Positions 7,377-25,102 of a DNA stretch of 64,000 nucleotides are shown here, piece after piece. The stretch comes from Candidatus Nitrosymbiomonas proteolyticus (GTDB lineage: Bacteria; Armatimonadota; Fimbriimonadia; Fimbriimonadales; Fimbriimonadaceae). Position 1 is the stretch's first letter; each line of letters starts with the position of its first letter. The notes beneath the pieces are model-generated. The model made no database searches. It was not told the origin of the DNA and worked only from the letters and a program-made list of their open reading frames with translations. The stretch covers positions 186,001 to 250,000 of the forward strand of contig AP021858.1 of NCBI GenBank assembly GCA_017347465.1, in the 5' to 3' direction. The position numbers and the translations under genes were made by a program.

Positions 7377-7826
7377 TCATCCGTTGTTGCGCTCTTCGAC
7401 GCTGTTTTGGGCGCCGATGGCTTGGAGCAGGAGGTCGTGGCCCAGGTAAAGGCTGAGGGAGCTAGGGCCCAGCCGGAGCCACTTCAGCGACTTCGGCACT
7501 CCTTCGGTCAAGAACTCAGCGATCTCCAGCGCAGACTCGCGTTCGAGAGCCGCCCCGTCGGTTCGCATCAACAGCAGGTGGAGGAGGTCATCCTCACCTT
7601 CGAACACGAAGCGGTACTCTCCAATGACGCCACCGAACGGGCCCGTGAGCGCTCCGGGCGAGGGAAAGCCGCGAGTCGGATCGAAAGAGGCTCTCGGGGA
7701 GTCATCTGGAGGCCGAGGAAACGGGACCTTCCGGTTCTCTTCGAGGTAGGCGGCTAGTGCAGACCACACCCTCTCTCGCTCCCGACAAGCCTCATTGTCG
7801 GAAGAAAGACGATCAGCCGGTCTCAT
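7377..7826 (-). CDS. Hypothetical protein, 149 aa
   Basis: Not recognised. The sequence reads as a soluble protein: an amphipathic N-terminal helix (WSALAAYLEENRKVP), a Pro-rich loop, then a beta-rich part containing GGVIGEYRFVFEGEDDLLHLLL and a C-terminal helical segment. No signal peptide or membrane span is visible. A GGGAG ribosome binding site precedes the ATG. It ends 47 bp upstream of the PadR gene on the same strand and could share its transcript. Confidence 0.6.
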   Translation of the reverse strand: MRPADRLSSDNEACRERERVWSALAAYLEENRKVPFPRPPDDSPRASFDPTRGFPSPGALTGPFGGVIGEYRFVFEGEDDLLHLLLMRTDGAALERESALEIAEFLTEGVPKSLKWLRLGPSSLSLYLGHDLLLQAIGAQNSVEERNNG

Positions 7827-11420: not shown

Positions 11421-12250
11421 AAGTCGTGCGAACGATTTCGGAGATGCGGTCCCTCCGAAGTGGCGCAGTCGGGTTGGTCCCGACGATGGGCGCGTTTCAC
11501 GAAGGCCACCTCTCGCTGATGCGTTCGGCCCGTGAATTGTGCGATCAACTGGTCGTGTCCCTATTCGTGAACCCGCTCCAATTCGGGCCGGCGGAGGATT
11601 GGGATGCGTATCCGAGGAATGAGGAACGGGATATCTCGTTAGCTCAACAGGAAGGGGTGGACGTCCTTTTTGCGCCTTCGGTCAGCGAAATGTACGAGTC
11701 CATGCGGACGACGGTTAGGGTCTCGGAGGTGTCCGACCTTTGGGAAGGCGAACGCCGCCCAGGCCACTTCGAGGGTGTCGCTACCGTCGTAGCCAAGCTC
11801 TTCGGAATCGTCGGGTGTCGCTTTGCTCACTTTGGCCAAAAGGACTACCAGCAATGCCGGGTTATCGAGTCCATGGCCAACGATCTGAGCATGGACGTGG
11901 TCCTCTTCTTTCACGATACTATTCGGGAGTCGGACGGCCTCGCGATGTCGAGCCGGAACGTCTACCTGAGCCCAGAGGAGCGCACGGTTGCCCCGGCGAT
12001 CTTCCAAGGCCTTCAGGAACTCGCTGCTGAACTCCAGTTCGCTCCAGGACGGCCCGTCGAAACGTCGCTGCAGAGGGTCGCTTCGTGGTGGAAGAGTCTG
12101 GGATTAGAACCCGAATACCTGGCATTGGTAGACGCAGATACATTAAAACCGTTGAGAACCAACAGTCGCAATAGCAGACTGATAACAGCGGTCCGGCTCG
12201 GGTCTACTCGGCTGATCGACAACGTGGATTGTTCGTTGATCGAAAGATAG
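11417..12250 (+). CDS. panC: Pantothenate synthetase
   Basis: Condenses pantoate and beta-alanine with ATP (277 aa). The nucleotidyltransferase motif PTMGAFHEGHLSL (HIGH-like) is at residues ~22-34, FVNPLQFGP near 50, FGQKDYQQC near 140 and the KMSKS-equivalent MSSRNVYLS near 176. The start is TTG overlapping the panB stop, with AAGGAA upstream. A usual aspartate decarboxylase gene (panD) is not next to it. Confidence 0.96.
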   Translation: MKVVRTISEMRSLRSGAVGLVPTMGAFHEGHLSLMRSARELCDQLVVSLFVNPLQFGPAEDWDAYPRNEERDISLAQQEGVDVLFAPSVSEMYESMRTTVRVSEVSDLWEGERRPGHFEGVATVVAKLFGIVGCRFAHFGQKDYQQCRVIESMANDLSMDVVLFFHDTIRESDGLAMSSRNVYLSPEERTVAPAIFQGLQELAAELQFAPGRPVETSLQRVASWWKSLGLEPEYLALVDADTLKPLRTNSRNSRLITAVRLGSTRLIDNVDCSLIER

Positions 12251-12360
12251 TCTTTGGGGGGCAAAAAGTTGCGAATTGGCAGCAATTTACGGAAGTTCCT
12301 GTTGCGTTCTGTGTCAAATTTTGGAGTACACTCGTTTGCGCTCCCCTTTTGAGGATTCTA

Positions 12361-12753
12361 ATGGCAAAGTCTGTGCAAACCGTAAAAAACTCGTTGAAAT
12401 TCAAAGCGAACGTTCGTTCGGGCGTTCTTTCCGTGAGAGTCGGCATGAAGAAGCATAAGCTTCCTCTGCAAGTGAGAATGCTCACGGATGACAAGTACAT
12501 TTTCCTGTCGTTCCCTGCAAGTTCTGAGCTTTACCGAATCGAAGGCAAGGACTTAGTGGCGATGGGCGTTCAAGAGGATGCGACCGAGGCCTTTACCGCG
12601 CTCAACCCTGGAAAGCGCGGCGGTCGGAAGCGCGCTTCAGCCCTTCCCGACAGCGTCGCTGTTGCGCTAGCGAAGATCCCTTCTGGATACCGCATCGGTT
12701 ACGACGCGGACGGCAACGCGCGCCTCGTCCGAACTCGCAAGCGACGGGCATAA
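12361..12753 (+). CDS. Hypothetical basic protein, 130 aa
   Basis: Not recognised. The ATG at 12361 follows GAGGA at good spacing and ACACTC about 50 nt upstream could belong to a promoter; the ORF extends further up only through panC-adjacent sequence. The protein is lysine/arginine rich, with a beta-rich N-terminal half (SGVLSVRVGMKKHKLPLQVR, YIFLSFPASSELYRI), a GKRGGRKRAS stretch resembling a nucleic-acid-binding hook, and a basic tail ending RTRKRRA. A DNA- or RNA-binding role is possible but is only inference from composition. Confidence 0.65.
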   Translation: MAKSVQTVKNSLKFKANVRSGVLSVRVGMKKHKLPLQVRMLTDDKYIFLSFPASSELYRIEGKDLVAMGVQEDATEAFTALNPGKRGGRKRASALPDSVAVALAKIPSGYRIGYDADGNARLVRTRKRRA

Positions 12754-12838
12754 CCCCGAGGGTTTGAGATCCCGGTGGGCCCTTCCGCCGGGATTGCCGA
12801 CCCGCTAGCTGGGGCGTGTAAACTTCTCACCCCTAGGC

Positions 12839-12913
12839 GCCGGCGTAGCTCAGAGGTAGAGCGGCTGTTTTGTAAACAGCGGGTCGCGGGTTCGAATCCT
12901 GTCGCCGGCTCCA
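12839..12913 (+). tRNA. tRNA-Thr (anticodon TGT)
   Basis: Acceptor GCCGGCG pairs with CGCCGGC; D arm GCTCAGAGGTAGAGC; anticodon stem-loop GCTGTTTTGTAAACAGC with TGT; T arm GGGTTCGAATCC; discriminator T and encoded CCA. Confidence 0.97.
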
Positions 12914-13071
12914 CCAGGCGAAGCGCCGGTAGCGCGCTTGCCCCCTCCAACTGCAATTCTGCAGCGCCCCTGATTCTTTGGCTCCCCCCGGCGATATGAC
13001 CCGCATCATGGCGCGCCGAACGAAGATTCCCCAATCTTTGTGCAGTCCCGCACTGCGGGAACGGTGATACG

Positions 13072-14463
13072 ATGCCAAGCCGATTTCCCAAGCGCTCCTG
13101 GGCCGAGCCCTACAAGATCAAGGTCGTCGAACTCCTGCAGATGACCTCCCGCGAACAGCGCGCTGCCGCGCTCGAAGCCGCCGGCTACAACACGTTCTTG
13201 CTTCGTTCGGAAGACGTCTATATCGACCTCCTGACCGATTCAGGGACCAGCGCGATGAGCGATCGACAATGGGCCGGGATGATGGTCGGCGACGAAGCTT
13301 ACGCCGGAAGCAAGAACTTTGAGAACCTCGAGGCCGCCGTTCGAAAATACTACGGCTTCCGCTACATCGTCCCGACTCACCAAGGCCGGGGCGCCGAGCA
13401 CATCCTCTCCAAGTCGTTGATCGAGCCTGGGGACTTCGTTCCGGGAAACATGTACTTCACGACCACGAGGTTGCATCAAGAGCTCGCCGGGGCAACGTTT
13501 GTGGACGTTATCGTGGACGAGGCGCACGACCCCGACGACCTGAGCCCGTTTAAGGGCAACATCGACCTGCAAAAACTCGAAGACTTGATCGGCAAAGTTG
13601 GAGCGGAGCGCGTTCCCTACGTCAGTTTCGCCGGCACGGTGAACATGGCGGGCGGCCAACCCTTCAGCATGAACAACTTGAGGGAGGTTCGCTCCCTGAC
13701 CGAGCGGCACGGCATTCCGATCTATTTCGACGCAACGCGCTTGGTCGAAAACGCTTACTTCATCCAGCAGCGAGAAGAAGGGTGGCGCGAGCGGACGGTG
13801 GCGGAGATCCTCTTGGAAATGTGTCGCCTAGGTGACGGTTGCACAATGAGCGCCAAAAAGGATTCGCTCGTGAACATCGGCGGCTTCTTAGCTACGAACG
13901 ATCCCAAGTTCTATGAAGAGGCCTGCAACCTCGTGGTGGTGTATGAAGGGTTGCACACATACGGGGGTTTGGCGGGCCGGGATATGGAGGCGATGGCGCA
14001 AGGAATTGCCGAAAGCGTCTGCGACGACCACATTCGGGCCAGGATAGGGCAAGTCGAATACCTCGGCCAGCACCTCATCGAACAAGGCATCCCCGTCGTC
14101 CAGCCGATCGGGGGGCACGCCGTGTTCTTGAACGCGAAAGGGTTTTATCCTCACCTTCCCCAGGACGCATTCCCCGCGCAGACTCTAGCGGCCGAGCTGT
14201 ATCTGGAAAGCGGAATCCGGTCCATGGAACGAGGCATCGCGAGCGCGGGGCGCGACCCTGAAACGGGCGACCATATTCGGCCTGCCCTCGAACTCGCGCG
14301 ACTGACCATTCCGCGCAGAGTCTATACGCAAGCGCACATGGACGTAACCGTCGAAGCGGTGTGCGAGACGTACGACCGCAGGAACGAAGCGAAGGGACTG
14401 CGAATGGTGTATGAGCCGCGTTACTTGAGGTTCTTCCGGGCTCGGTACGAACCTCTCTCCTAA
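13072..14463 (+). CDS. tpl: Tyrosine phenol-lyase
   Basis: PLP enzyme that splits L-tyrosine to phenol, pyruvate and ammonia (463 aa). Numbering runs 6 ahead of the Citrobacter enzyme and the specificity residues all match: Thr130-132 (FTTTR), Asp220 (IYFDATR), Lys263 forming the PLP imine (MSAKKDSLVNIGG), Met385 and Arg387 in SMERG, and Phe454 in RYLRFFRARYEP. Tryptophanase has an AVEIG-type sequence in place of SMERG, so tryptophanase is unlikely. The gene stands alone behind tRNA-Thr; no transporter or regulator is adjacent. Confidence 0.93.
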   Translation: MPSRFPKRSWAEPYKIKVVELLQMTSREQRAAALEAAGYNTFLLRSEDVYIDLLTDSGTSAMSDRQWAGMMVGDEAYAGSKNFENLEAAVRKYYGFRYIVPTHQGRGAEHILSKSLIEPGDFVPGNMYFTTTRLHQELAGATFVDVIVDEAHDPDDLSPFKGNIDLQKLEDLIGKVGAERVPYVSFAGTVNMAGGQPFSMNNLREVRSLTERHGIPIYFDATRLVENAYFIQQREEGWRERTVAEILLEMCRLGDGCTMSAKKDSLVNIGGFLATNDPKFYEEACNLVVVYEGLHTYGGLAGRDMEAMAQGIAESVCDDHIRARIGQVEYLGQHLIEQGIPVVQPIGGHAVFLNAKGFYPHLPQDAFPAQTLAAELYLESGIRSMERGIASAGRDPETGDHIRPALELARLTIPRRVYTQAHMDVTVEAVCETYDRRNEAKGLRMVYEPRYLRFFRARYEPLS

Positions 14464-14616
14464 CGGCTTGGGATTGGGGGGCCTAGGACTCTAGTCCAAG
14501 CGCTTCGGGCTCAATTTTCTCACGTCGAAGGCCGTTGAGCGGTAGGGGCCTCGAACATTTCGGCGCATCGCGCGGTCTGCTCACCATGGCCTACGGGCCG
14601 AGGAGACAAACCGAAA

Positions 14617-14949
14617 ATGCTACGCACCCTCGCACTCGCAACCGTGCTCTCGACGTTCGCTTTCGCGCCCTGCCTGTCGGCGGCGCAGACTCAGACCGCT
14701 TCAGGCAACCCAGCCAACCTTACCAAGACCCAAGGCCAGATTCCTGTCGGCCCCAGCTTCGAGGACCTCGTCGCCAAGCTCAGGGACCTTCGAGAACGAA
14801 AGAAGCACGACCTCGCTAACGGGCGCAAGCACCAGGCATACCTCGCCGAGAAGATCGAAATTGTGAAGAGGGCGCTTCGGAACCACCACGGTTCCCGCGG
14901 GCAAAAGGCTGCCCTCAACCAGCCGATCGACTCCAACCCCCCCAAGTGA
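14617..14949 (+). CDS. Small secreted protein of unknown function
   Basis: 110 residues with a clear Sec signal peptide (LRTLALATVLSTFAFAPCLS, cleavage after AQT or SAA at ~23). The mature part is a Gly/Asn/Pro-containing stretch and then a highly charged helix (VAKLRDLRERKKHDLANGRK) and a basic C-terminus. GAGGAG lies 11 nt before the ATG. A Rho-independent hairpin follows the stop codon. Function unknown. Confidence 0.65.
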   Translation: MLRTLALATVLSTFAFAPCLSAAQTQTASGNPANLTKTQGQIPVGPSFEDLVAKLRDLRERKKHDLANGRKHQAYLAEKIEIVKRALRNHHGSRGQKAALNQPIDSNPPK

Positions 14950-14982
14950 ATGGGCGCCAATAGGCCACTCCTTTAACAAATA

Positions 14983-15020
14983 CCACGGATGAGCCAATCA
15001 GGTTCGTCCGTGGCTTGGTT
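14983..15020 (+). terminator. Probable Rho-independent terminator
   Basis: Stem CCACGGATGA (14983-14992) pairs with TCGTCCGTGG (15004-15013) with one G-T pair, followed by a T-rich stretch. It lies just after the small secreted protein gene. Confidence 0.5.
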
Positions 15021-15103
15021 TGTCTGAGCCGACCGCTCGCTCCGCTCGACCGCTCAACTCAGGCAGAATGTACGACCCCGTATTTTTTGGGGCCAAGAGG
15101 CGG

Positions 15104-15109
15104 TACTCT
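15104..15109 (+). promoter_or_regulatory. -10 box of a leaderless promoter
   Basis: TACTCT lies 7 nt before the ATG at 15117. Confidence 0.45.
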
Positions 15110-15116
15110 CGCTCCC

Positions 15117-15686
15117 ATGCCGATTCGATCCGCCCTCAAGGAGCAGTACCACGCCGCGCTGGCGATGATGGAGGACTGCGTAGCCAAGTGCCCGGACGAC
15201 CTTTGGACCACGCCGTCCCGAAGCGACCCTTACGAGGATGCGCCGGGCCGTTGCTGCACGAGGAGCTTCTGGCGCATCGCCTTCCACGGCATCTACTTCA
15301 CCCACCTCTACATGGGCCAGAGCGTGGAGGACTTCGAGCCGCCAACGAACCTGCTGATGGGCGTGCGCGAGGACTTCAAGGGGCTTTGGGACAAATCGTG
15401 GGACCTCGATCCTTTCGAGATTCCCGAAGGCGTCGAGCCCGTCTCAATGGAGGAAATGATCCAGTACCTGCGATGGGTGGACTCGCGGGTGGATCCGACC
15501 CTCGATGGCCTCGACCTCGACTCTCAGGAATCCGGGATTCCGTGGTACAAGAAGTTTCCCAAGCTCAACCACGAACTGCTTACGCTCCGCCACCTTCAGG
15601 GCCACGTCGGCCAGCTTTCGGAACTCCTCATGGCGCGAGAGATCGATTCCGATTGGGTCAGCAGGGTCAAGCCCTCCGGCGCATGA
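15117..15686 (+). CDS. DinB-like helical-bundle protein
   Basis: 189 residues with the four-helix-bundle layout of the DinB/YfiT superfamily. Putative metal ligands are histidines in IAFHGIYFTHLYMG (~60-70) and in LRHLQGHVGQLSELLMA (~155-172). These proteins are often thiol-dependent transferases, but the substrate cannot be read from sequence. The ATG at 15117 is chosen because the family N-terminus (IRSALKEQYHAALAMMEDC) starts there and a TACTCT box is 7 nt upstream; the longer ORF is unsupported. Confidence 0.72.
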   Translation: MPIRSALKEQYHAALAMMEDCVAKCPDDLWTTPSRSDPYEDAPGRCCTRSFWRIAFHGIYFTHLYMGQSVEDFEPPTNLLMGVREDFKGLWDKSWDLDPFEIPEGVEPVSMEEMIQYLRWVDSRVDPTLDGLDLDSQESGIPWYKKFPKLNHELLTLRHLQGHVGQLSELLMAREIDSDWVSRVKPSGA

Positions 15687-15850
15687 GGTAGGGAAACTCC
15701 CTCTCCGGGGAAAGGCTCTCGACAACGGGATTGGCCAGACGATGCTTCACCCCCCCTCGGGGTGGTCCGGAGGCCCCGGTTGCCCCGGAGACATGGATGG
15801 CCGTGCCGTTTGTCCGGGAGGGATAAGCGAGGTTGGCGGATAGCCATCGC
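15687..15850. repeat. Hairpin-rich repeat patch at the left end of the island
   Basis: Contains CACCCCCCCTCGGGGTG and a GGCCCCGG/CCGG hairpin. It also holds a GGCCGTGCCGTTYGTCCGGG block (15792-15815) that recurs near 49324-49346. No gene is seen here. Confidence 0.5.
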
Positions 15851-15855
15851 CCGTG

Positions 15856-15861
15856 TATAAT
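15856..15861 (+). promoter_or_regulatory. -10 box of a leaderless promoter
   Basis: TATAAT lies 7 nt before the ATG at 15869. Confidence 0.55.
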
Positions 15862-16099
15862 ACGCCATATGAGCGATAGGCGAATGTCTACCTCCTCTGG
15901 CAATCGCACCCTCGCCAGCGCGAAGGCGGCCAAGCAGGACGAGTTCTACACCCAGCTCGCCGACATCGCCAACGAGCTGAAGCACTACAAGGACCACTTC
16001 AAGGGCAAGGTCGTGCTGTGCAACTGCGACGACCCGTTCGAGAGCAACTTCTTCAGCCCGGCGCGCTGGATCGCCGCCAATTCGGGTCAGCCCGAACTC

Positions 16100-16295
16100 A
16101 ACGCCACGACAAGACAGTCCAAGAGGCCCCTCCGAAGGCCCATCGGGCCGAAATCCTACAGAAGACAGTCCAAAAGGCGTCTCCGAAGGCCCATCGGGCC
16201 GAAATCCTATAGCGAAGGGCGGAGCCCTGGAACAGGGCCCACCCCCACCGATAAGCCCTGTAGGGGCGGAATGTCGGCCCCTGTAACGCGCTCCA
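16100..16295. repeat. Repeat family A copies inside the methyltransferase gene
   Basis: Two tandem 51-bp units start at 16113 and 16164 (GACAGTCCAAAAGGC-type start, GAAGGCCCATCGGGCCGAAA core). They run into TATAGCGAAGGGCGGAGCCC, the same two-hairpin layout as the elements flanking the transposase at 19.3-19.9 kb. Unit length is a multiple of three, so the host frame stays open. Confidence 0.75.
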
Positions 16296-16365
16296 GCTAC
16301 GCCGGCTCCCCCATCGTCGGCGGCCAACTCCCGCTGATAGTGATGGAGGGGCTGAAGCCGTATCT

Positions 16366-16425
16366 GGACCCCCTCGCCCCGATGAATGGCGGGGAGAGGG
16401 GGCAGGGGGTGAGGGGTCCGCGAGG
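16366..16425. repeat. Palindromic element E, copy 1
   Basis: Core CGCCCCGATGAATGGCGGGG with flanking CCCTC/GAGGG arms. It is the reverse complement of the element at 21126-21180. It interrupts the methyltransferase reading frame without breaking it. Confidence 0.75.
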
Positions 16426-16515
16426 CGCATGGGACGGAGCCCACCTGGTCGAAATCAACGAGGTCCCGGACCTCAATGAGGACGGCGCAACCAATCAGGA
16501 CGGTATGCCTCTAGC

Positions 16516-17382
16516 ATGAGATCGCCGATGTCTCCCCAGGTTCCATCCTATGACTCGATGATCGAGCCAACGTTGCGAGCGTTGCAGCTGCTTGGCGGGT
16601 CGGGCTCTATTGAGGAGGTGAATGCGAAAGTCGCTGAGCTGATGTCACTCAGCGATGAGGTGCTAGATGTTCCGCACGGAACGACCTCCACTTCCGAAGT
16701 TGCGTATCGGCTTGCGTGGAGCCGAACCTATCTAAAGAAGTTCGGTCTTCTCGAAAACTCGAGCAGGGGGGTCTGGTCGCTGACAGCAAGAGGAGTGGAA
16801 GCTCAAACCATCGACGCACGGGAAGTGGTTGCATTTGTTAGGTCTCAGTTTCCGGGCCGCGCCAATGCAACGCCCGGCATCGAAGCGACAGATGCGGCAG
16901 AGGAATCTGAGCCGCCGCAGGCTGGTTGGCAAGAGCTATATCTCCAGAAGCTACTCGGTTTGCAGCCCGCAGCCTTTGAACGCCTTATCCAGCGAATGCT
17001 TCGGGAGTCAGGATTTACTCACGTCGAAGTAACTGGTCGGACCGGAGATGGTGGCATTGACGGCGTCGGTATCGCCAGAATTAGCGGCTTCTTGAGCTTC
17101 AGGGTCTTGTTCCAATGCAAACGCTACCAGGGAAGCGTATCTCCTTCAGAGATTCGCGACTTTCGCGGCGCAATGCAAGGTCGCACGGACAAGGGTTTGT
17201 TTGCCACGACGGGTTCCTTTAGCCAAAAGGCGATCGCCGAGGCAACCCGCGATGGCGCACCTCCGGTTGATCTGGTTGATGGAGGGCAGCTTGTACTTCG
17301 GCTCAAAGAACTCGGGCTCGGAGTGAAGGTCAACATGGTTGAATCCGTGGAGGTAGATGGGGAGTGGCTAGATTCCCTATGA
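16516..17382 (+). CDS. Mrr-family restriction endonuclease
   Basis: 288 residues. The N-terminal part (~10-105) resembles the Mrr winged-helix domain, with YRLAWSRTYLKKFGLLE and SLTARG. The C-terminal PD-(D/E)xK domain carries GFTHVEVTGRTGDGGIDGVG and VLFQCKRYQGSVSPSEIRDF, with catalytic Asp in DGGIDG and the QxK motif in FQCKR. Mrr enzymes cut modified DNA. The ORF is complete and sits inside the broken methyltransferase gene. Codon use is less GC-biased than in neighbours, which fits a separate arrival. Two ATGs (16516, 16528) are possible starts. Confidence 0.88.
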   Translation: MRSPMSPQVPSYDSMIEPTLRALQLLGGSGSIEEVNAKVAELMSLSDEVLDVPHGTTSTSEVAYRLAWSRTYLKKFGLLENSSRGVWSLTARGVEAQTIDAREVVAFVRSQFPGRANATPGIEATDAAEESEPPQAGWQELYLQKLLGLQPAAFERLIQRMLRESGFTHVEVTGRTGDGGIDGVGIARISGFLSFRVLFQCKRYQGSVSPSEIRDFRGAMQGRTDKGLFATTGSFSQKAIAEATRDGAPPVDLVDGGQLVLRLKELGLGVKVNMVESVEVDGEWLDSL

Positions 17383-17919
17383 TGAATCCGCCGGGCGACT
17401 TCCGCAGCCGGGAATGCCTGGAGGTTTTGAAGCGAGCCGACGTCGTCGTCACCAACCCGCCCTTCTCCCTGTTCCGCGAGTACGTCGCCCAGCTCGTGGA
17501 GCACGGCAAGCAGTTCCTGATCATCGGCTCGAAGAACGCGATCACCACCAAAGAGGTCTTCAAGCTGATCAAAGAGAACAAGCTCTGGCTCGGCGTCGGC
17601 TTCAACGCCGGCAACGCCACCTTCGAGATTCCGAAGGAGAACGTGCGCGACTTCGCTTCGGGGGTCTACGACGAGAAGACCGGCCTCGTCAAGTTCCGCA
17701 ACGTCGGCTGGTTCACGAACATGGACTTCGAGGAGCGCCACCAGGACATCCCGCTCTTCAAGCAGTATTCGCCGGAGGCGTATCCGACCTACGACAACTA
17801 CGATGCGATCGAAGTGGGCAAGGTCGCCGACATCCCGGCCTCATCTGGCACAGGCGCACCCCAAGGGCTGTGCAGTTCGTAATGTAAGATAGGCTTCCCA
17901 GGCAAGGACAATCCAGCTC

Positions 17920-18810
17920 ATGCCCCTCACCGACCGACTCGACGAAACCATCCTCAGCATCCTAAACGGGGCTGCCGAGAAGTTGGAAACGAAGCTGGAT
18001 GCCAACGTCATGACGTACCTTGGCCCGATCCACGAAGTCTTCCTCAACGAGTTTCGTAACTTCGTGGAGCACCTCGCTCAAAGCAAGAAACCCCGCCTCG
18101 CCATGCTGATCAAGACCGGCGGGGGCAGTGCGCAGGCAGCCGAGAAGATGGTCGAGATCATGCGCCATCACTACAAGGAGGTCTGGTTCGTCGTCCCCGA
18201 CTTCGCCATGTCGGCAGGCACCATTCTCGTGCTTTCCGGCGATAAGGTCTGGATGGACTACTCGTCCTCCCTCGGGCCGGTCGACCCGCAAGTGCTCGTG
18301 ACCATTCAAGGCAACCAACAGTACGTGCCGGCCCTCGGCCATCTTGACAAAGTCGCGGAACTCATCGAGAAAAGTCGCCAAGGCACGTTGACAAATGCCG
18401 AGTTCGCCATCTTGAGGGATCAGAACCTGGCCGTTCTGCGTTCATACGAACAGGCCAGGGACCTCTCGATCAACCTGCTCGAAGAGTGGCTGGTGAAGTT
18501 CAAGTTCAAGACCTGGGCCAAGCACCGGACCGACCCTGCCAAGGTCGGGAAGAAGGTCACCGACGACGAAAAGAAGGCTCGGGCCAAGGAAATCGCTGCC
18601 CTTCTCTGCGACAACAAAGTCTGGCACTCCCACGGGCGCTTGATCGGGCACGACAGGCTGCGGGACGTCGTGCGGCTTGAGATCGACGACTACTCCGCCG
18701 ATCTTGAAATGAGGGCCCTGATCCGCGAATATCACGACCCGCTGAACGAATATGCAGCTAGAATGGGTCAACAGTTTTGTCTACACTCGAAAAACCGGAG
18801 CACGCTATGA
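17920..18810 (+). CDS. ClpP-class serine protease, SDH_sah family
   Basis: 296 residues of the SDH_sah (serine dehydrogenase proteinase) family, related to SppA/ClpP folds. The nucleophile region is FAMSAGTILVLSGDKVWMD (Ser near residue 91, preceded by the oxyanion strand LIKTGGGSAQ), followed by SSLGPVDPQV. The C-terminal block DNKVWHSHGRLIGHDRLRD and tail CLHSKN are family hallmarks. No signal peptide, so it is probably cytosolic or membrane-associated. ATGA overlap with the next small gene suggests an operon. Substrate unknown. Confidence 0.85.
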   Translation: MPLTDRLDETILSILNGAAEKLETKLDANVMTYLGPIHEVFLNEFRNFVEHLAQSKKPRLAMLIKTGGGSAQAAEKMVEIMRHHYKEVWFVVPDFAMSAGTILVLSGDKVWMDYSSSLGPVDPQVLVTIQGNQQYVPALGHLDKVAELIEKSRQGTLTNAEFAILRDQNLAVLRSYEQARDLSINLLEEWLVKFKFKTWAKHRTDPAKVGKKVTDDEKKARAKEIAALLCDNKVWHSHGRLIGHDRLRDVVRLEIDDYSADLEMRALIREYHDPLNEYAARMGQQFCLHSKNRSTL

Positions 18811-19016
18811 GAACCGCCGACAACGAAATCACCAAGGCCGTCGAAGCCATCCAAAACGACCAGGCGCTTGAGAGTGAGTTTCAGGCTGCCGCAGGTTCAA
18901 TGGAGGATTTCTACCAGCGCATGCTCGCTGCCGGCATCGCCCGCAAGGAAGACTACAACATAGTCGCCACCGGCGAAGCCAGCCACCTAGACGTTTCCTT
19001 CCTGATCCGCACCTGA
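18807..19016 (+). CDS. Small acidic hypothetical protein, 69 aa
   Basis: Not recognised. It starts at the ATG overlapping the protease stop (ATGA) with CGGAG 5 nt upstream. It is predicted mainly helical (EITKAVEAIQNDQALESEFQ) with a Met/Gly-containing middle and a DYNIVATG segment. Coupling to the protease suggests a partner or substrate-related role, which is inference only. Confidence 0.6.
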   Translation: MRTADNEITKAVEAIQNDQALESEFQAAAGSMEDFYQRMLAAGIARKEDYNIVATGEASHLDVSFLIRT

Positions 19017-19040
19017 AGTCCGCGGTTGCCCGCGTTCCGC

Positions 19041-19145
19041 CTGCTCCCGCACCCCCGACAACTGCTCCCGTCACCCTCACAATTGCTCCCGCGACCCCGA
19101 CAATGGCTCCCGTCACCCCGGCGAGAGCTTCCGTCAGGGCAGGAA
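19041..19145. repeat. 21-bp tandem repeat, about five units
   Basis: Units start at 19041, 19062, 19083 and 19104 with CTGCTCCCG-type starts and ACCCCGACAA-type ends; the fifth (19125) is degenerate. The period is 7 codons and gives a T-x-A-P-V-T-P type peptide in one plus frame, but no start codon or homology supports a gene. Confidence 0.65.
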
Positions 19146-19175
19146 TCTCGGCTGTCGGGGTTAGAATAAGCTCTT

Positions 19176-19268
19176 ATGGCAAGAATCAAGCGGGATGGGC
19201 CCGGCCTCCGGGACCAATTGACGCAGGCGAGCGCCGGCATCACCGCCAACTCTTGGCGGCCAGTTTAG
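19176..19268 (+). pseudogene. N-terminal fragment, probably of an fnIII-type protein
   Basis: ATG at 19176 opens MARIKRDGPGLRDQL and continues to ANSWRPV, where a stop codon arises at the edge of the repeat element that flanks the transposase. The peptide resembles the start of small fnIII proteins, and an fnIII piece lies on the far side of the element at 19946. I infer one gene split by the element. Confidence 0.4.
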
Positions 19269-19905
19269 GCCCAACGGGCCGATCATCCAACAGCGAAGGG
19301 CGAAGCCCTGGATAGGAACCGGACAACCCCCAGCGGGCTGAAGGCCCGCGATTCAGTCCCAGAAATACCGCTCGTCGAACTCCATCCCCGCCTCCCGCAA
19401 CATGCCCCGAAGCTCGTCCTGGAAGGAAATCTTTCGGTGGTGCTCTTCTTGGCCCTTGATGTACGCGATCACGCCGTCCGCCTCCATCGGCCCTACCGAA
19501 AACGCCCCATATCCGGCCTGCCAAGTAAATGCGGCGACGCCCTTGGTCTTCATCCACTTCGAGGTGCTCGTCTTCGTCTTCTCAATCACTTGGGCGAGGG
19601 ACATCTTGCGGGAGAGTCGAAAGAGGATGTGGACGTGGTCCTCGACGCCGCCCGTTTGGATCGAGGGGCATCCGATGTTCGCAAGAACCCCGACGATATA
19701 GGGATGCAGCTCCTGCCGGATCGTCGGGGTAAGCCAAGGGGTTCGTTCCTTCGTGCTGAAGACGGCGTGGACGAGGACAGTGGCGAGAGATTGCGGCATG
19801 TCTGTCGATTGTATCGCGGCCCTTCAGGCCGCCGGACATTCTGGGGCGTGCGTTTACCAGGGCTTCGCCCTTCGCTGGTGAATGCTCGCCCCTTTGGGGC
19901 TAGGC
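19266..19905. mobile_element. REP-transposase unit: RAYT gene between inverted repeat elements
   Basis: Left repeat 19266-19345 (TTTAGGCCCAACGGGCCGAT, then CAGCGAAGGGCGAAGCCCTG) and right repeat 19815-19905 are the same element in opposite orientation. Each has two short hairpins: GGCCC/GGGCC and AGGGC/GCCCT. Between them is a single Y1 transposase gene on the minus strand. This matches the REP/RAYT arrangement, in which the encoded transposase acts on flanking palindromes. Confidence 0.8.
19353..19799 (-). CDS. REP-associated tyrosine transposase (Y1_Tnp, RAYT)
   Basis: 148 residues of the IS200/RAYT-like Y1_Tnp family. The HUH motif is GVEDHVHILFRLSRK (His pair in HVH) near residue 57, and the catalytic tyrosine is in VIAYIKGQEEHHRK near 115. 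Also visible are VHAVFSTKERTPWL at the start, KTSTSKWMKTKG and the aromatic TWQAGYGAFSVGP. The length is typical. The start at 19799 is the family start MPQSLATVLVH. Inverted copies of a palindromic element lie on both sides. Confidence 0.9.
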   Translation of the reverse strand: MPQSLATVLVHAVFSTKERTPWLTPTIRQELHPYIVGVLANIGCPSIQTGGVEDHVHILFRLSRKMSLAQVIEKTKTSTSKWMKTKGVAAFTWQAGYGAFSVGPMEADGVIAYIKGQEEHHRKISFQDELRGMLREAGMEFDERYFWD

Positions 19906-19933
19906 TGGCAGCGACCTTGGTCGACACTCATGT

Positions 19934-19939
19934 TACAAT
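19934..19939 (+). promoter_or_regulatory. -10 box of a leaderless promoter
   Basis: TACAAT lies 6 nt before the ATG at 19946. Confidence 0.45.
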
Positions 19940-19945
19940 GATCTG

Positions 19946-20197
19946 ATGGCTACTATGGAAAGGCCCGGCTCGTTGAAGCTGGATTGGGAGCCGATCGAGG
20001 GCGCATCGTATGAGGTGCAGTGGTCCTCGGTCTCGAACTTCGCGACGATCGCGGGCTCGGCGACTTCGGCTTCGGCGTCGGACTACGTGTTTTCGGGCCT
20101 GGTTCCGGGGACTCAGTATTGGTCGCGCGTGCGGCCGATCCGGGGCGGGCAGACGGAGCAATGGTCCGACCCTGCGACGCGGGTTGCGCGGGTTTAG
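19946..20197 (+). CDS. Short fibronectin type III domain protein
   Basis: 83 residues forming a single fnIII-like domain: SLKLDWEPIEGASYEVQWS, DYVFSGLVPGTQYWSRVRPI and a final WSDPATRV. It lacks a signal peptide. It follows the right repeat of the transposase unit by 40 bp, and MARIKRDGPGLRDQL before the left repeat may be its missing N-terminus. It may be expressed from the TACAAT box 6 nt upstream, or may only be a remnant. Confidence 0.6.
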   Translation: MATMERPGSLKLDWEPIEGASYEVQWSSVSNFATIAGSATSASASDYVFSGLVPGTQYWSRVRPIRGGQTEQWSDPATRVARV

Positions 20198-20209
20198 GGG
20201 GAACAAGAT

Positions 20210-20560
20210 ATGAAGCTAATTGTATCAAGGAACCAATCAGACATGAAGGGGCTCCTCGGCGGCCACAAGGGCGTGAAGTTCAATCTACGTGCTCATGTCC
20301 AGTTAACACCTGAGGAACAGCAATTGGCTGAGCGCTACATGATCCTGAAGAAATGGCTTCCGACCGAGCTCGCTGCGGGCATGATGGGTGCCAAAAAAGT
20401 GCCGGAGTTTGGCGACCTCTTAACGCCTGTCGCCTTCGAGTACGAGAGCCTAGAGGTCCTTCTTGAAAAGGAAGAAGAGCTAAAGAAGGTTTGCGCAGGC
20501 GTGAAGAATTACATCGACGTCGCTCGCTCTTTCGGCGGGCAGGACGTCTTTGAGTTCTAG
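20210..20560 (+). CDS. Hypothetical protein, 116 aa
   Basis: Not recognised by function. GGGGAA precedes the ATG. The N-terminal half (GLLGGHKGVKFNLRAHVQLT) reads as beta-strands and a helical half follows (EYESLEVLLEKEEELKKVC and NYIDVARSFGGQDVFEF). Soluble, no signal peptide. It lies between the fnIII piece and the next small gene, on the same strand. Confidence 0.6.
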   Translation: MKLIVSRNQSDMKGLLGGHKGVKFNLRAHVQLTPEEQQLAERYMILKKWLPTELAAGMMGAKKVPEFGDLLTPVAFEYESLEVLLEKEEELKKVCAGVKNYIDVARSFGGQDVFEF

Positions 20561-20579
20561 TTGCTCACTGGGAGAAACG

Positions 20580-20813
20580 ATGGGAATCGTCAAGGGTCGA
20601 GTAGTAACGAGAACCGGTAGTCCGGTGCCAAACGCCACTGTGCGAGGGAACGTTGGTGGTTTGATGGGTGGATTCGTAACTTCCAAGACCGATCGCGAAG
20701 GGCGATTTGTACTGAACTATTCCGGGGTTGGGAGACTAGAATATGTCTCGGTCGAAGGCGGCGAGCGCGAGAATAACGTGGCAAGTGGTTCGGATTTGAC
20801 ACTCTACAAGTAG
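20580..20813 (+). CDS. Carboxypeptidase-regulatory-like domain protein, 77 aa
   Basis: A single small beta-sandwich domain: GIVKGRVVTRTGSPVPNATV at the start is the usual pattern of carboxypeptidase regulatory-like (CarboxypepD_reg) domains, followed by SKTDREGRFVLNYSGVG. GGGAGAAAC precedes the ATG at 20580. No signal peptide is present, unusual for this fold in exported proteins, so the gene may be a fragment. Confidence 0.6.
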   Translation: MGIVKGRVVTRTGSPVPNATVRGNVGGLMGGFVTSKTDREGRFVLNYSGVGRLEYVSVEGGERENNVASGSDLTLYK

Positions 20814-20892
20814 TCACCAACCAATGAAAATCGACCTCAAGAACATCACCGTCCGCGAGCTGGTCGAGGGCTACGTCGACAAGGCGGAAGAG

Positions 20893-20986
20893 GGGGTTCG
20901 CGGGCAGCTTCGCAGACCCCCACCCAGTTCGCTCCGCTCACTGACCTCCCCCTCTCACTGCGCTCCAAGGGGAGGGCGGCAAGCTG
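20893..20986. repeat. Hairpin insertion in the DUF262/HNH gene
   Basis: Two hairpins: GGGGGTTCGCGG with AGACCCCC, and ACCTCCCCCT with AAGGGGAGG. It replaces a few codons between EEGV and GGKLNIRP and shifts the frame. Confidence 0.65.
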
Positions 20987-21121
20987 AACATCCGCCCCGC
21001 CTACCAGCGCGAATTCATCTACAAGGACAAGCAGCGTAACGAGGTCATCCACACCGTGCGCAAGGGCTTCCCGCTCAACACGATGTATTGGGTGGTGGCT
21101 GGGAACTCGGATGCGCAGACG

Positions 21122-21180
21122 GAGAACCCCTCACCCCCTGACCCCCTCTCCCCGCCATTCATCGGGGAGAGGGGGAGTTT
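21122..21180. repeat. Palindromic element E, copy 2
   Basis: CCCTCTCCCCGCCATTCATC followed by GGGGAGAGGGGG. It is the same sequence, in reverse orientation, as 16366-16425. It lies just before the DGQQRT motif of the DUF262 domain and shifts the frame. Confidence 0.8.
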
Positions 21181-22065
21181 TATGAGCTGATGGACGGGCA
21201 GCAGCGCACGATCAGCCTCTGCCAGTACGTCGCGGGCGACTTCGCCATCGAGATCGAAAGGACGCCCTACTTCTTCGGCAACCTCACCGCCGAGCGGCAG
21301 AATCAGATCCTGGACTACGAGCTCCAGATCTACATTTGCGAGGGGACCGACCAGGAAAAGCTCGACTGGTTCAAGATCATCAACATCGCGGGCGAGAAGC
21401 TGACCGACCAGGAGCTTCGCAACGCGATCTACACCGGCCCCTGGCTCGCCGATGCCAAGCGTTGGTTCAGCAAGACGGCCTGTCCGGCCTATCAGATCGG
21501 CGAGAAGTACGTCAACGGCTCCCCCATCCGGCAGGAGTTCTTGGAGAGGGCGCTGGAATGGATCACGGGCGGCAAGGACGAGGTTGTTGAAAAGTGCATG
21601 GCCGTCCACCAGCACGACGCCGATGCCCAGGAGCTTTGGCAGCACTATCAGGCGGTGCTCGACTGGGTGAAGCGAGTCTTCCCGAACTACCGAAAGGAGA
21701 TGAAGGGCCTGGACTGGGGCAAGTTCTACCGCGACCACGGCCAGAGAAAGGACCTGAACGCGGCAACACTCGAGGCGCGGATCAAGGAACTCATCGATGA
21801 CGACGAAGTGCAAAGCGTCAAGGGAATCTACGAGTACCTACTGACGACCAACGAAAAGACCCTGAACCTGCGGACCTTCGACGACAGGATGAAGCGGAAG
21901 GTGTACGAGCAGCAAAGCGGCGTTTGCCCGGACTGCAGAAAGCCGTTCGATATCTCCGCGATGGAAGCCGACCACATCGTTCCTTGGCACAAGGGCGGGA
22001 AGACGGTCTTTGAGAACTGCCAGATGCGTTGCCTGCCATGCAACCGGGCGAAGAGCGGGAAGTAG

Positions 22066-22174
22066 CGGAACTGCCCGTCCTTCGCTCCGCGAAACGCAAC
22101 GGACATGGGGAGATTGTAGCGGACGGGCAGGAGCTTCTGAAAGGCTCAAACTTCCTGGTAGCATGGAAGCCACC
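22066..22174. other. Intergenic stretch before the Gfo/Idh gene
   Basis: Holds an inverted repeat CTGCCCGTCC (22070) / GGACGGGCAG (22120) with a ~40 nt loop, and a TAGCAT box (22159-22164) 10 nt before the ATG at 22175. No gene seen. Confidence 0.35.
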
Positions 22175-23593
22175 ATGTCGGACAAAGTTCCTCGTCGGGA
22201 GTTTCTCAAGGCAGCGGGCGCGGCAAGCCTCGCCGCGGCAGCCTCGGTATCGGTCGGCAGCGGCGGCTCGCCCAAGACACCGCGCATCCCTGAAAGCCCC
22301 CAGAAATCGACCATGATCGGCTACGCAGCGCCCCAACTCGATGCCGTCCGCCTCGGGTTCATCGGGGTCGGCGCGAGGGGTTCGGGGCACGCCGCCCAGA
22401 TGCTCGCTCTCGAGGGCGTCGAGATCAAGGCGATTTGCGACCTTTACAAGGACTGGGCCGACCGCTCCGCCAAGCGCTGCGTCGACGCCGGACGCCCCGC
22501 GCCCACCGTGTACGTCAACGGCAGCGATGAGTACAAGCGATTGCTGGCCCGGGACGACATCGACGCGGTAATCATCTCGACGCCTTGGGAAGAACACGCC
22601 CGGATGGCCATCGACGCCATGAAGGCGGGCAAGCACGCCTTCGTCGAGGTCCCCGCCTGCGTTACGCTCGAAGAGTGCTGGGAACTGGTCGAAACCTCCG
22701 AAGCCACGCGCCGGCACTGCATGATGATGGAGAACGTGAATTACGGCCGCGAGGAACTGATGGTCCTCAACATGTGCCGCATGGGGCTCCTCGGTGAGAC
22801 GCTGCATGGCGAAGCGGCCTACATTCATGACCTTCGAGGGCAGATGCACGAGGTGCAGCGAGGAACCGGATCGTGGCGAACGGTTCACTACACCAAGCGC
22901 AACGGCAACCTCTACCCGACGCACGGGTTTGGCCCGGTTTGCTGGTACATGAACGTCAATCGGGGCGACCGCCTCGATTACCTTTCGAGCGTCTCCAGCA
23001 ACTCGCGCGTCCGCGCCGAATATGCCAAGCGGAACTTCCCCCCCGACCACAAATGGAACCGGATGAAGTTCGTTTGTGGAGACATCAGCACGACGATCGT
23101 GCGGACGGTGATGGGCAAGACGATCATGGTCCAATGGGACGAGCAGTTGCCTCGGCCGTACAACCGGTTGAACCTGATCCAGGGGACGAAAGGCGTTTGG
23201 GGAGGGTTTCCCAGTCGGCTGGTCTTGGAGGGCCCGGCCGGTTCGGATGAGGCGGGCGCCCACCTTTTGACGAAATCGGCGGATTCGTGGACGCAAGGCG
23301 CCGACCTCAACCCGTTTTTCGAGAGGTACGACCACCCGCTTTGGAAGAAGGTCGCTGCGTTGCCTTCCAATCAGGGCGGGCACGGAGGGATGGACTTCGT
23401 GATGCTCTGGCGCATCATCTATTGTCTCCGCAATGGACTGCCCCTCGATCAGGATGTTTACGACGCCGCGGCTTGGACCTGCATCTCGCCCCTCTCAGAG
23501 AAATCGGTGGCGAACCGGGGTCAAAGCATCGACATCCCCGACTTCACACGGGGGCAATGGGCCTCAGCGAAGCCGGTGGACTTGGGCACGTAA
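22175..23593 (+). CDS. Gfo/Idh/MocA family protein, GH109-like, Tat-exported
   Basis: 472 residues. A twin-arginine signal (PRREFLKAAGAASLAAA) opens the protein. The NAD-binding loop GFIGVGARGSGHAAQML is near residue 60 and the family EVP motif in HAFVEVPACVTLEEC near 160. GH109 features follow: ENVNYGREELMVLNM, GNLYPTHGFGPV and a HGGMDF block near the C-terminus. GH109 enzymes hydrolyse glycosides by an NAD-dependent redox mechanism. ATG 22175 is preferred (GGAAG 5-6 nt upstream); 22163 is possible. Substrate is not predictable. Confidence 0.85.
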   Translation: MSDKVPRREFLKAAGAASLAAAASVSVGSGGSPKTPRIPESPQKSTMIGYAAPQLDAVRLGFIGVGARGSGHAAQMLALEGVEIKAICDLYKDWADRSAKRCVDAGRPAPTVYVNGSDEYKRLLARDDIDAVIISTPWEEHARMAIDAMKAGKHAFVEVPACVTLEECWELVETSEATRRHCMMMENVNYGREELMVLNMCRMGLLGETLHGEAAYIHDLRGQMHEVQRGTGSWRTVHYTKRNGNLYPTHGFGPVCWYMNVNRGDRLDYLSSVSSNSRVRAEYAKRNFPPDHKWNRMKFVCGDISTTIVRTVMGKTIMVQWDEQLPRPYNRLNLIQGTKGVWGGFPSRLVLEGPAGSDEAGAHLLTKSADSWTQGADLNPFFERYDHPLWKKVAALPSNQGGHGGMDFVMLWRIIYCLRNGLPLDQDVYDAAAWTCISPLSEKSVANRGQSIDIPDFTRGQWASAKPVDLGT

Positions 23594-23599
23594 CCCCAC

Positions 23600-25102
23600 T
23601 CAGTCCCCATCCTGCTTGCTGGCGGGACGAGTACGAAGCGCCGCCCAAGTGCGGAGTTCTTCGATGTCCTCTCGCATCATCACGCTAAGGGGCACGATCG
23701 ACTTCGCTTCGGTCACCAGGTCGGCCATGGTGAGTTCGCGGTCGTCCGCAAACGCCAGGTGCAACGCACCCACCACGACCTGCTCGATCTCCGCGCCGCT
23801 GTAACCGCGCGTGTGCTCGGCGAGCTTCGGCAAATCAAACTGCGCGGGGTCCCGTTTGCGCTTCTTCAGATGGATTTGGAAAATCTGCCTTCTTTCCTCA
23901 GCGTCGGGAAGGTCGACGAAGAAAATCTCGTCGAACCTGCCTTTTCGTAGCATCTCCGGCGGCAACTTCGTAACGTCGTTGGCCGTGGAAATCAAGAACA
24001 CGGGCCGGGTTTTCTCTTGCATCCAGGTGAGGAACGTCGAGAACACCCTTGCCGTAGTGCCGCTGTCGCTGACCCCGCTTCCCGCCATCCCGGAAAAACC
24101 CTTCTCCATCTCGTCCATCCACAAAATGCAGGGAGCGACGGATTCGGCGATACGAATCGCCCGGCGCATGTTTTCTTCGCTCTGGCCGACGAGGCTGCCA
24201 AAGATCCGCCCCACGTCCATTTTCAACATCGGCAGGCTCCAATGCGCGGCGACGGCTTTCGCCAAGAGCGACTTTCCGCAGCCCTGCACACCGAGAATCA
24301 GGATTCCTTTGGGAACGGGAATGCCGAACGCCTTGGCCTTTTCGGTGAAGCTCTTCCTTCGCACTTCGAGCCACTGCTTGAGGTACTCCATCCCTCCCAC
24401 GTCCTTGAGGGTGTGCTCCGCAGGGTAGTACTCGAGCAGCCCCGACTTGCGGACGATCTGTTTCTTCTCTTCGAGCACGACCTCGACATCGAACTTCCGT
24501 TTCTCGACGAAACTGCGGGCGAAGACGTTCTCAATTTCGTCCAGAGTCAGCCCTTGAGCCGATTTGACGATCAGTTCGCGGTCGGCCTTCGTGAGCTTGG
24601 ACTGCACCTTGGGGTCATCTCTTACCGCGGCGACGACCGAATCGAGACAATCCGAGATCTGCTGGGCGTTCGGCAGTCCGAATTCGACGACGGTCACGTC
24701 TTTTTCGAGTTCGACGGGCAAGCTCAGGATAGGTCCAACGAGGATCAGCGTCGTAGCCCTCCCGCGCAGCCGATGGGCGAGGTCGCGCAGTAAGCGCACG
24801 ACTCGGTAGTCCTTCATGTAGGGGTGGAAGTCGCGCAAGGCGAACACCGAACCCTCAGGCGCCTCATGGACCAGCGCGAGCGCTTCGAGTTCTCCCGGCA
24901 GCGTGGTCGGGTTGGGAGGACCGCTGGTCCGATTGACGGGCGGCCTCATTCCCTGCGTTACCGACCAGGTATGGAGCTTCCTCTTGAGCTCGGAGCAAAC
25001 CCCTTGGAGCGCCGTTTCCAACCTCCGCTCTTCCCAGGTGGTCACATAGAGAATCGGGTATTTGGCCCGAATGAGGATTTCGATCTCGCGAACGGAGTCC
25101 AT
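23600..25102 (-). CDS. AAA+ ATPase, Ycf46-like
   Basis: 500 residues. The N-terminal half (1-210) is the Ycf46-type region (IEILIRAKYPILYVTTWEER, GSVFALRDFHPYM). The AAA+ module has Walker A GVQGCGKS near residue 270, Walker B CILWMDEMEKG near 330, sensor 1 ISTANDVTKLPPEMLRKGRF and the arginine finger in KGRFDEIF. Related proteins in chloroplasts and cyanobacteria affect photosynthesis/CO2 regulation, but the bacterial role is unknown. No peptidase domain, so it is probably a remodelling ATPase. TAGCAT lies 9 nt before the start. Confidence 0.88.
   Translation of the reverse strand: MDSVREIEILIRAKYPILYVTTWEERRLETALQGVCSELKRKLHTWSVTQGMRPPVNRTSGPPNPTTLPGELEALALVHEAPEGSVFALRDFHPYMKDYRVVRLLRDLAHRLRGRATTLILVGPILSLPVELEKDVTVVEFGLPNAQQISDCLDSVVAAVRDDPKVQSKLTKADRELIVKSAQGLTLDEIENVFARSFVEKRKFDVEVVLEEKKQIVRKSGLLEYYPAEHTLKDVGGMEYLKQWLEVRRKSFTEKAKAFGIPVPKGILILGVQGCGKSLLAKAVAAHWSLPMLKMDVGRIFGSLVGQSEENMRRAIRIAESVAPCILWMDEMEKGFSGMAGSGVSDSGTTARVFSTFLTWMQEKTRPVFLISTANDVTKLPPEMLRKGRFDEIFFVDLPDAEERRQIFQIHLKKRKRDPAQFDLPKLAEHTRGYSGAEIEQVVVGALHLAFADDRELTMADLVTEAKSIVPLSVMMREDIEELRTWAALRTRPASKQDGD

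Follow-up and report, generated by a model that had tools for sequence, protein, structure and literature searches.

An intact Mrr-type endonuclease gene within the methyltransferase gene of a decayed Type II restriction-modification operon in Candidatus Nitrosymbiomonas proteolyticus

What does it mean when an intact restriction endonuclease gene lies inside a DNA methyltransferase gene? In a stretch of 64,000 nucleotides of the Candidatus Nitrosymbiomonas proteolyticus genome (G000, a single contig, C1, of 2.81 Mb), which we refer to as the window (C1:186001-250000), an Mrr-type gene separates pieces of an M.EcoRI-type methyltransferase gene (M). A preliminary description of this locus proposed that nested insertions had disabled the modification gene and that a modification-dependent nuclease had taken its place, so that the locus would record a switch in defence type. 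E. coli Mrr is a Type IV restriction enzyme, and Mrr-like nuclease motifs alone do not dictate modification dependence, as in LlaGI (PMC3874153). Here we find that the earlier interpretation is partly right at the level of the gene and wrong at the level of the genome. The features of the locus are listed in Table 1.

Table 1. Features of the locus, in positions of the window.
Feature	Position	Strand	Evidence or remark
Strain-specific 6.3-kb island, decayed R-M operon and Mrr	15791..22121	+	Absent from G132
M promoter region, TTGGCG-17-TATAAT at 15833-15861	15827..15868	+	Sigma-70-like site
M.EcoRI-type methyltransferase piece 1	15869..16054	+	PF13651 profile 2-49; 96.5% nt to paralogue
Insertion A, 2 x 51-bp tandem repeat and REP-like core AGCGAAGGGCGGAGCCCTGG	16056..16292	+	Replaced ~51 bp of M
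M piece 2	16293..16362	+	Alignment to uninterrupted paralogue
Palindrome E insertion, in frame	16363..16435	+	Shared by uninterrupted G000 M and G132 M
M piece 3	16436..16500	+	Alignment to uninterrupted paralogue
Intact Mrr-type endonuclease gene, 288 aa	16516..17382	+	Mrr_N and Mrr_cat; GDGGID...QCK
M piece 4 (NPPF motif)	17383..17840	+	PF13651 profile 122-274; 90.6% to G032, 92% to G132
SDH/ClpP-like serine protease gene, M-R cargo	17920..18810	+	G023 homologue between M and R, inverted
79-aa ORF, no family	18777..19016	+	ORF list, Pfam
21-bp tandem array before FN3-like gene	19042..19120	+	Repeat search
FN3-like gene (MARIKRDGPG...), split by REP/RAYT element	19176..20197	+	Homologue comparison
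Y1_Tnp (RAYT-like) transposase	19353..19799	-	Inverted A-core copies flank: 19256-19311 / 19857-19912
Cognate R gene (DUF262/GmrSD_N and HNH), broken	20824..22065	+	Homology over all 384 positions

Four collinear M.EcoRI-type pieces had been described, with repeat family A, palindrome E, and a complete Mrr gene of 288 codons between them, and this arrangement was confirmed by Pfam searches and by alignment to an uninterrupted M paralogue in the same genome (C1:2466266-2467372, PF13651 profile 2 to 345). The pieces align to this paralogue in collinear blocks at 15827-16055 (96.5% nucleotide identity), 16293-16500 (85%), and 17394-17838 (73%), interrupted by the repeats and by Mrr, which is the support that the preliminary description had asked for. 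The EcoRI_methylase domain (PF13651) is detected in the open reading frames at 15869-16516 (E = 1.7e-23, profile 2-49) and 17364-17879 (E = 3.6e-64, profile 122-274), which together leave the remainder of the 345 profile positions uncovered. The N-terminal frame is open up to 16519, as had been noted, and the C-terminal frame is also open (17364-17882); an open frame across the repeats was rejected as a sign of selection, as much of this stretch is free of stop codons in other frames too. The gaps in the alignment do not coincide exactly with the inserts, contrary to the earlier account: ~51 bp of M were lost at repeat A and 47-58 bp at Mrr (in alignments to the uninterrupted M and to the gene in G132, another genome of this species), and ~72 C-terminal codons are absent beyond 17840. 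Nor are the insertions nested, since each of A, E, and Mrr has its own site in M, and the three lie side by side. The NPPF, CNCDDP, and ESNFF motifs are all retained in the pieces, and 31 of the 119 columns that are invariant in an alignment of nine intact relatives have been lost, including 18 that belonged to the absent C-terminus and 9 from the segment between FF and SY. Judged by these alignments, the window M is a remnant of an M.EcoRI-family adenine methylase (PF13651). Because the C-terminal piece still has a dN/dS of 0.21 (relative to G032), either the inactivation of M may be recent, or this piece may have been under selection until lately. A DxNxDGxxNxxDV motif in M (A1 ~134-146, L001), close to where E and Mrr were inserted, may resemble an EF-hand/dockerin calcium loop.

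The claim that insertions disabled M holds insofar as one methylase gene is disrupted and Mrr intruded upon it, but it fails for palindrome E. Both the uninterrupted M of G000, where the insert reads 'KPYLNPLAPMNGGERGQGVRGKPRGWDGAHLV', and the M of G132 carry E in frame, and we rejected it as an M-inactivating insertion. The preliminary description had named intact homologues with the inserts as evidence that would overturn it, and the occurrence of E in these genes supplies this evidence in part. Because these two genes share it, E appears to be an old and tolerated part of M, and it would have entered M before the alleles of this species diverged. The window has two exact matches to its core (16379-16402), where chance predicts 0, and the G000 genome has three. 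As all three sit within the two copies of the operon, E probably arrived together with the operon, and a genome-wide mobile element in G000 was rejected on the same count. The wider E family is patchy, occurring in 28 of 81 genomes, with 0 to ~25 copies in relatives, and an E-like palindrome also lies in frame within the uninterrupted endonuclease gene at 2.46 Mb (L004 ~7735-7784). REP-like palindromes that keep the frame of coding regions in this way are reminiscent of Rickettsia palindromic elements.

Repeat A contains a REP-like hairpin as its core (16211-16230), matched 6 times in the window against a chance expectation of 0.04 and at 18 sites genome-wide with up to 2 mismatches; a search of the G000 genome found no further full copies of its 51-bp unit. 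Downstream in the window, a Y1_Tnp match (E = 3.9e-20, Pfam) flanked by inverted arms of the same REP core, together with the dispersed cores, identifies a REP/RAYT element. Its layout, a Y1 transposase between inverted short hairpins, is that of the TnpA-REP superfamily (PMC6006769), and the same hairpin has been inserted in M. This element is the likely source of the A core hairpins.

The Mrr gene itself is intact. Its product combines an Mrr_N winged helix (2.1e-19, Pfam) with an Mrr_cat domain (1.1e-28) bearing a D...QxK motif, which is the architecture of E. coli Mrr; it differs from the latter in being embedded in M. The GDGGID...QCK motif aligns to MspJI (4f0p), and PADLOC matches, at the sequence level, include mREase_IV (E = 2.4e-26). 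The encoded protein may well be active. The nearest homologue, 87% identical in amino acid sequence, is in a genome from a different family (G073), and the DNA homology between the two is confined to 16540-17378, that is, to coding sequence, with M homology restarting at 17383-17394, right behind the Mrr stop codon. Relative to G073, the dN/dS is 0.047 (280 codons), a value that averages both lineages at a dS of 1.7, so that recent decay would stay hidden, and that indicates purifying selection on Mrr in the past.

How might Mrr be expressed? No clear ribosome-binding site is apparent for the gene itself, and its ATG overlaps the TGA of the M-fragment open reading frame (ATGA). Because the sole sigma-70-like site within 15690-18000 is that of M (15833-15861), and because of the ATGA overlap, Mrr is most likely expressed from the old M promoter, 650 bp upstream, although a further in-frame ATG at 16528 is a possible true start and would weaken the argument from the overlap. 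A near-identical promoter region precedes the uninterrupted G000 M and the G132 M. In Pectobacterium, too, one genome combines R-M with a methylation-dependent nuclease (PcaRCI/PcaRCII), and there the nuclease is silenced through methylation of its promoter (PMC8989522), whereas the window Mrr may share the promoter of M. The TATAAT of this promoter ends ~7 bp from the M ATG (window 15856-15869), and the M transcript may be leaderless.

A second broken gene, absent from the preliminary description, lies further downstream. In 78 of 80 M.EcoRI-family loci from many phyla (GTDB), an endonuclease gene (R) is found directly 3' of M, and the remaining 2 loci are at a contig end. Among relatives with an intact M, a DUF262 (GmrSD_N) and HNH gene follows on the same strand; the exceptions are one G025 copy (C30), which has only an R fragment, and one G087 copy, whose contig ends before R. 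PADLOC classifies R as a Type II REase (REase_II PDLC03418, E = 2.8e-121), and the window matches this Type II R-M system in its families, gene order, and orientation. Both genes of the window operon are interrupted, in contrast to the copy at 2.463-2.467 Mb, in which M and R are open and the operon is complete. Within the window R, a 64-bp insert (20905-20968) shifts the frame and is followed by stop codons, a palindrome E lies at 21127-21175, and the remaining open reading frame (21190-22065) lacks the N-terminus. Since R is broken as well, the unit in the window appears to be a whole dead M-R operon, in which both the M and R activities would have been lost.

The site of this operon is empty in G132. 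The same-species genome matches the window at 12000-15790 (97.7%) and 22122-24000 (98.7%) with 42 bp in between, and thus lacks the entire island, whose boundaries lie close to the limits of operon homology (15827 and 22101). This comparison has no outgroup to polarise it, and the empty site could instead reflect a deletion. The divergence between the island R and the paralogous R of G000 is 12%, against only ~2% for the flanks of the island between the two genomes; a local duplication of the operon within the genome is therefore unlikely, and import from another strain or species fits better. G132 carries an M at a 2.6-Mb locus that is closer to the window pieces than is the uninterrupted G000 M (92% in the C-terminal part vs 73%), and the difference of the G000 gene is concentrated in a central block that is only 53-56% identical, which looks like a swap of the specificity region. 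The G132 M is itself in two frames, with one frameshift that is either real or possibly a sequencing error. When the operons at the same locus in the two genomes are compared (L004 6862-11415 and L213 4096-9199), the flanks are ~93% identical, R differs by 18%, the M central block by ~46%, and the cargo between M and R is wholly different.

We consider it probable that the island holds a surplus Type II R-M operon that no longer functions, to which Mrr was added inside M while a complete operon persists elsewhere in the genome. An M.EcoRI-family adenine methylase and a DUF262-HNH endonuclease would have made up the operon on this strain-specific island. M would have been broken by the REP-like insertion, the intact Mrr gene, and the loss of its C-terminus, and R by a pair of insertions that includes palindrome E; in M, this palindrome causes no visible harm to the uninterrupted gene. 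Mrr would have arrived with little beyond its coding sequence and displaced some 50-60 bp of M, and its product would have to tolerate methylation by the persisting M-R operon. The order of these events is a tentative reconstruction. Thus, the decaying operon has gained a further defence gene, Mrr, and one type of defence has not been exchanged for another. That a modification-dependent nuclease took over from a modification gene after its knockout, as first proposed, now seems very unlikely. An intact Mrr does sit in a dead M, and in G025 (L060 6297-7513) a second Mrr, 31% identical to that of the window and in the opposite orientation, abuts a truncated M, the first 319 bp of which share 97% identity with the intact M that this genome carries on a different contig. 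However, there has been no switch at the level of the genome, because G000 retains its uninterrupted M-R operon at 2.46 Mb; the local R is dead; and the island is extra relative to G132. In addition, M and Mrr-type genes are not mutually exclusive, because G080 and G025 each carry an intact M together with an Mrr-type gene.

Alternatively, Mrr could be a passenger, inserted by illegitimate recombination, without useful expression, and on its way out. The breakage of both R-M genes and of the FN3-like gene of the island, the lack of a clear ribosome-binding site for Mrr, and the confinement of G073 homology to the coding sequence are all in keeping with such a fate, but the complete open reading frame with its catalytic motif and the low dN/dS over 280 codons speak against it, and we regard it as unlikely. 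It is highly improbable that M survives as a functional split methylase of which Mrr is an integral component: both the N-terminal and C-terminal frames are open and the C-terminal piece has a dN/dS of 0.21, but the invariant columns deleted between FF and SY and at the C-terminus argue against function, and the arrangement recurs in no relative among the 80 loci. Least credible is an ancestral arrangement in which M and Mrr form a functional pair. Although Mrr also abuts M in G025, that Mrr is divergent and inverted, the constant partner of the M family is the DUF262-HNH gene, and Mrr was found nearby in 1 and inside M in 0 of the 80 M.EcoRI-family loci, a family-wide synteny that already refutes the pairing.

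The interval between M and R is a more interesting lead than the single locus. All seven operons of families f1 and f5 (including the G025 C30 copy with its R fragment) have an M-R gap of 1.3-3.0 kb, against 6-45 bp in three other operons of the phylum. A set of 78 GTDB loci has a median gap of 9 bp, with only 2 gaps above 500 bp, one of them that of G023. The operon copy in the window has two broken genes, Mrr within M, and an M-R interval filled by 2.9 kb of cargo, and thus departs from Type II R-M systems elsewhere. Much of the cargo in these intervals matches PADLOC families (PDC-M34A/B, PDC-M30/M41, PDC-S02, and a PD-T7-5-like protein), and FN3-like or similar small genes recur inside or beside them. 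In G082 (L072 129-1986), a D12 adenine methylase gene begins one base past the stop codon of a truncated M. One possibility, which we hold tentatively and at rather less than even confidence, is that in this class the M.EcoRI-type/DUF262-HNH operon is a modular carrier, with the M-R interval as an exchangeable slot for defence genes that is swapped even within species, and that a truncated M serves as an expression platform (a promoter and an overlapping or adjoining stop and start) for an incoming Mrr or D12 methylase. If the slot is a true site of exchange, it would provide a defined place to seek new defence genes in Armatimonadota, as well as a natural test of a modification-dependent nuclease living beside an active adenine methylase. 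Restriction genes turning over within one another's remnants show how a defence island is renewed.

Two further observations concern the cargo. In G080 (L067 9130-10503), the gene for a PD-T7-5-like protein (PADLOC, E = 1.2e-78) lies between the M and R of an intact operon. Tandem arrays with a 21-bp unit are present in the window (19042-19120), G132 (L213 6796-6869), two loci of G025, G016, and G023, the further arrays being at L063 7005-7124, L060 5932-6080, L065 8269-8502, and L066 5861-6028. These arrays, found in several genera and mostly upstream of FN3-like genes, are possibly a recombination or regulatory element.
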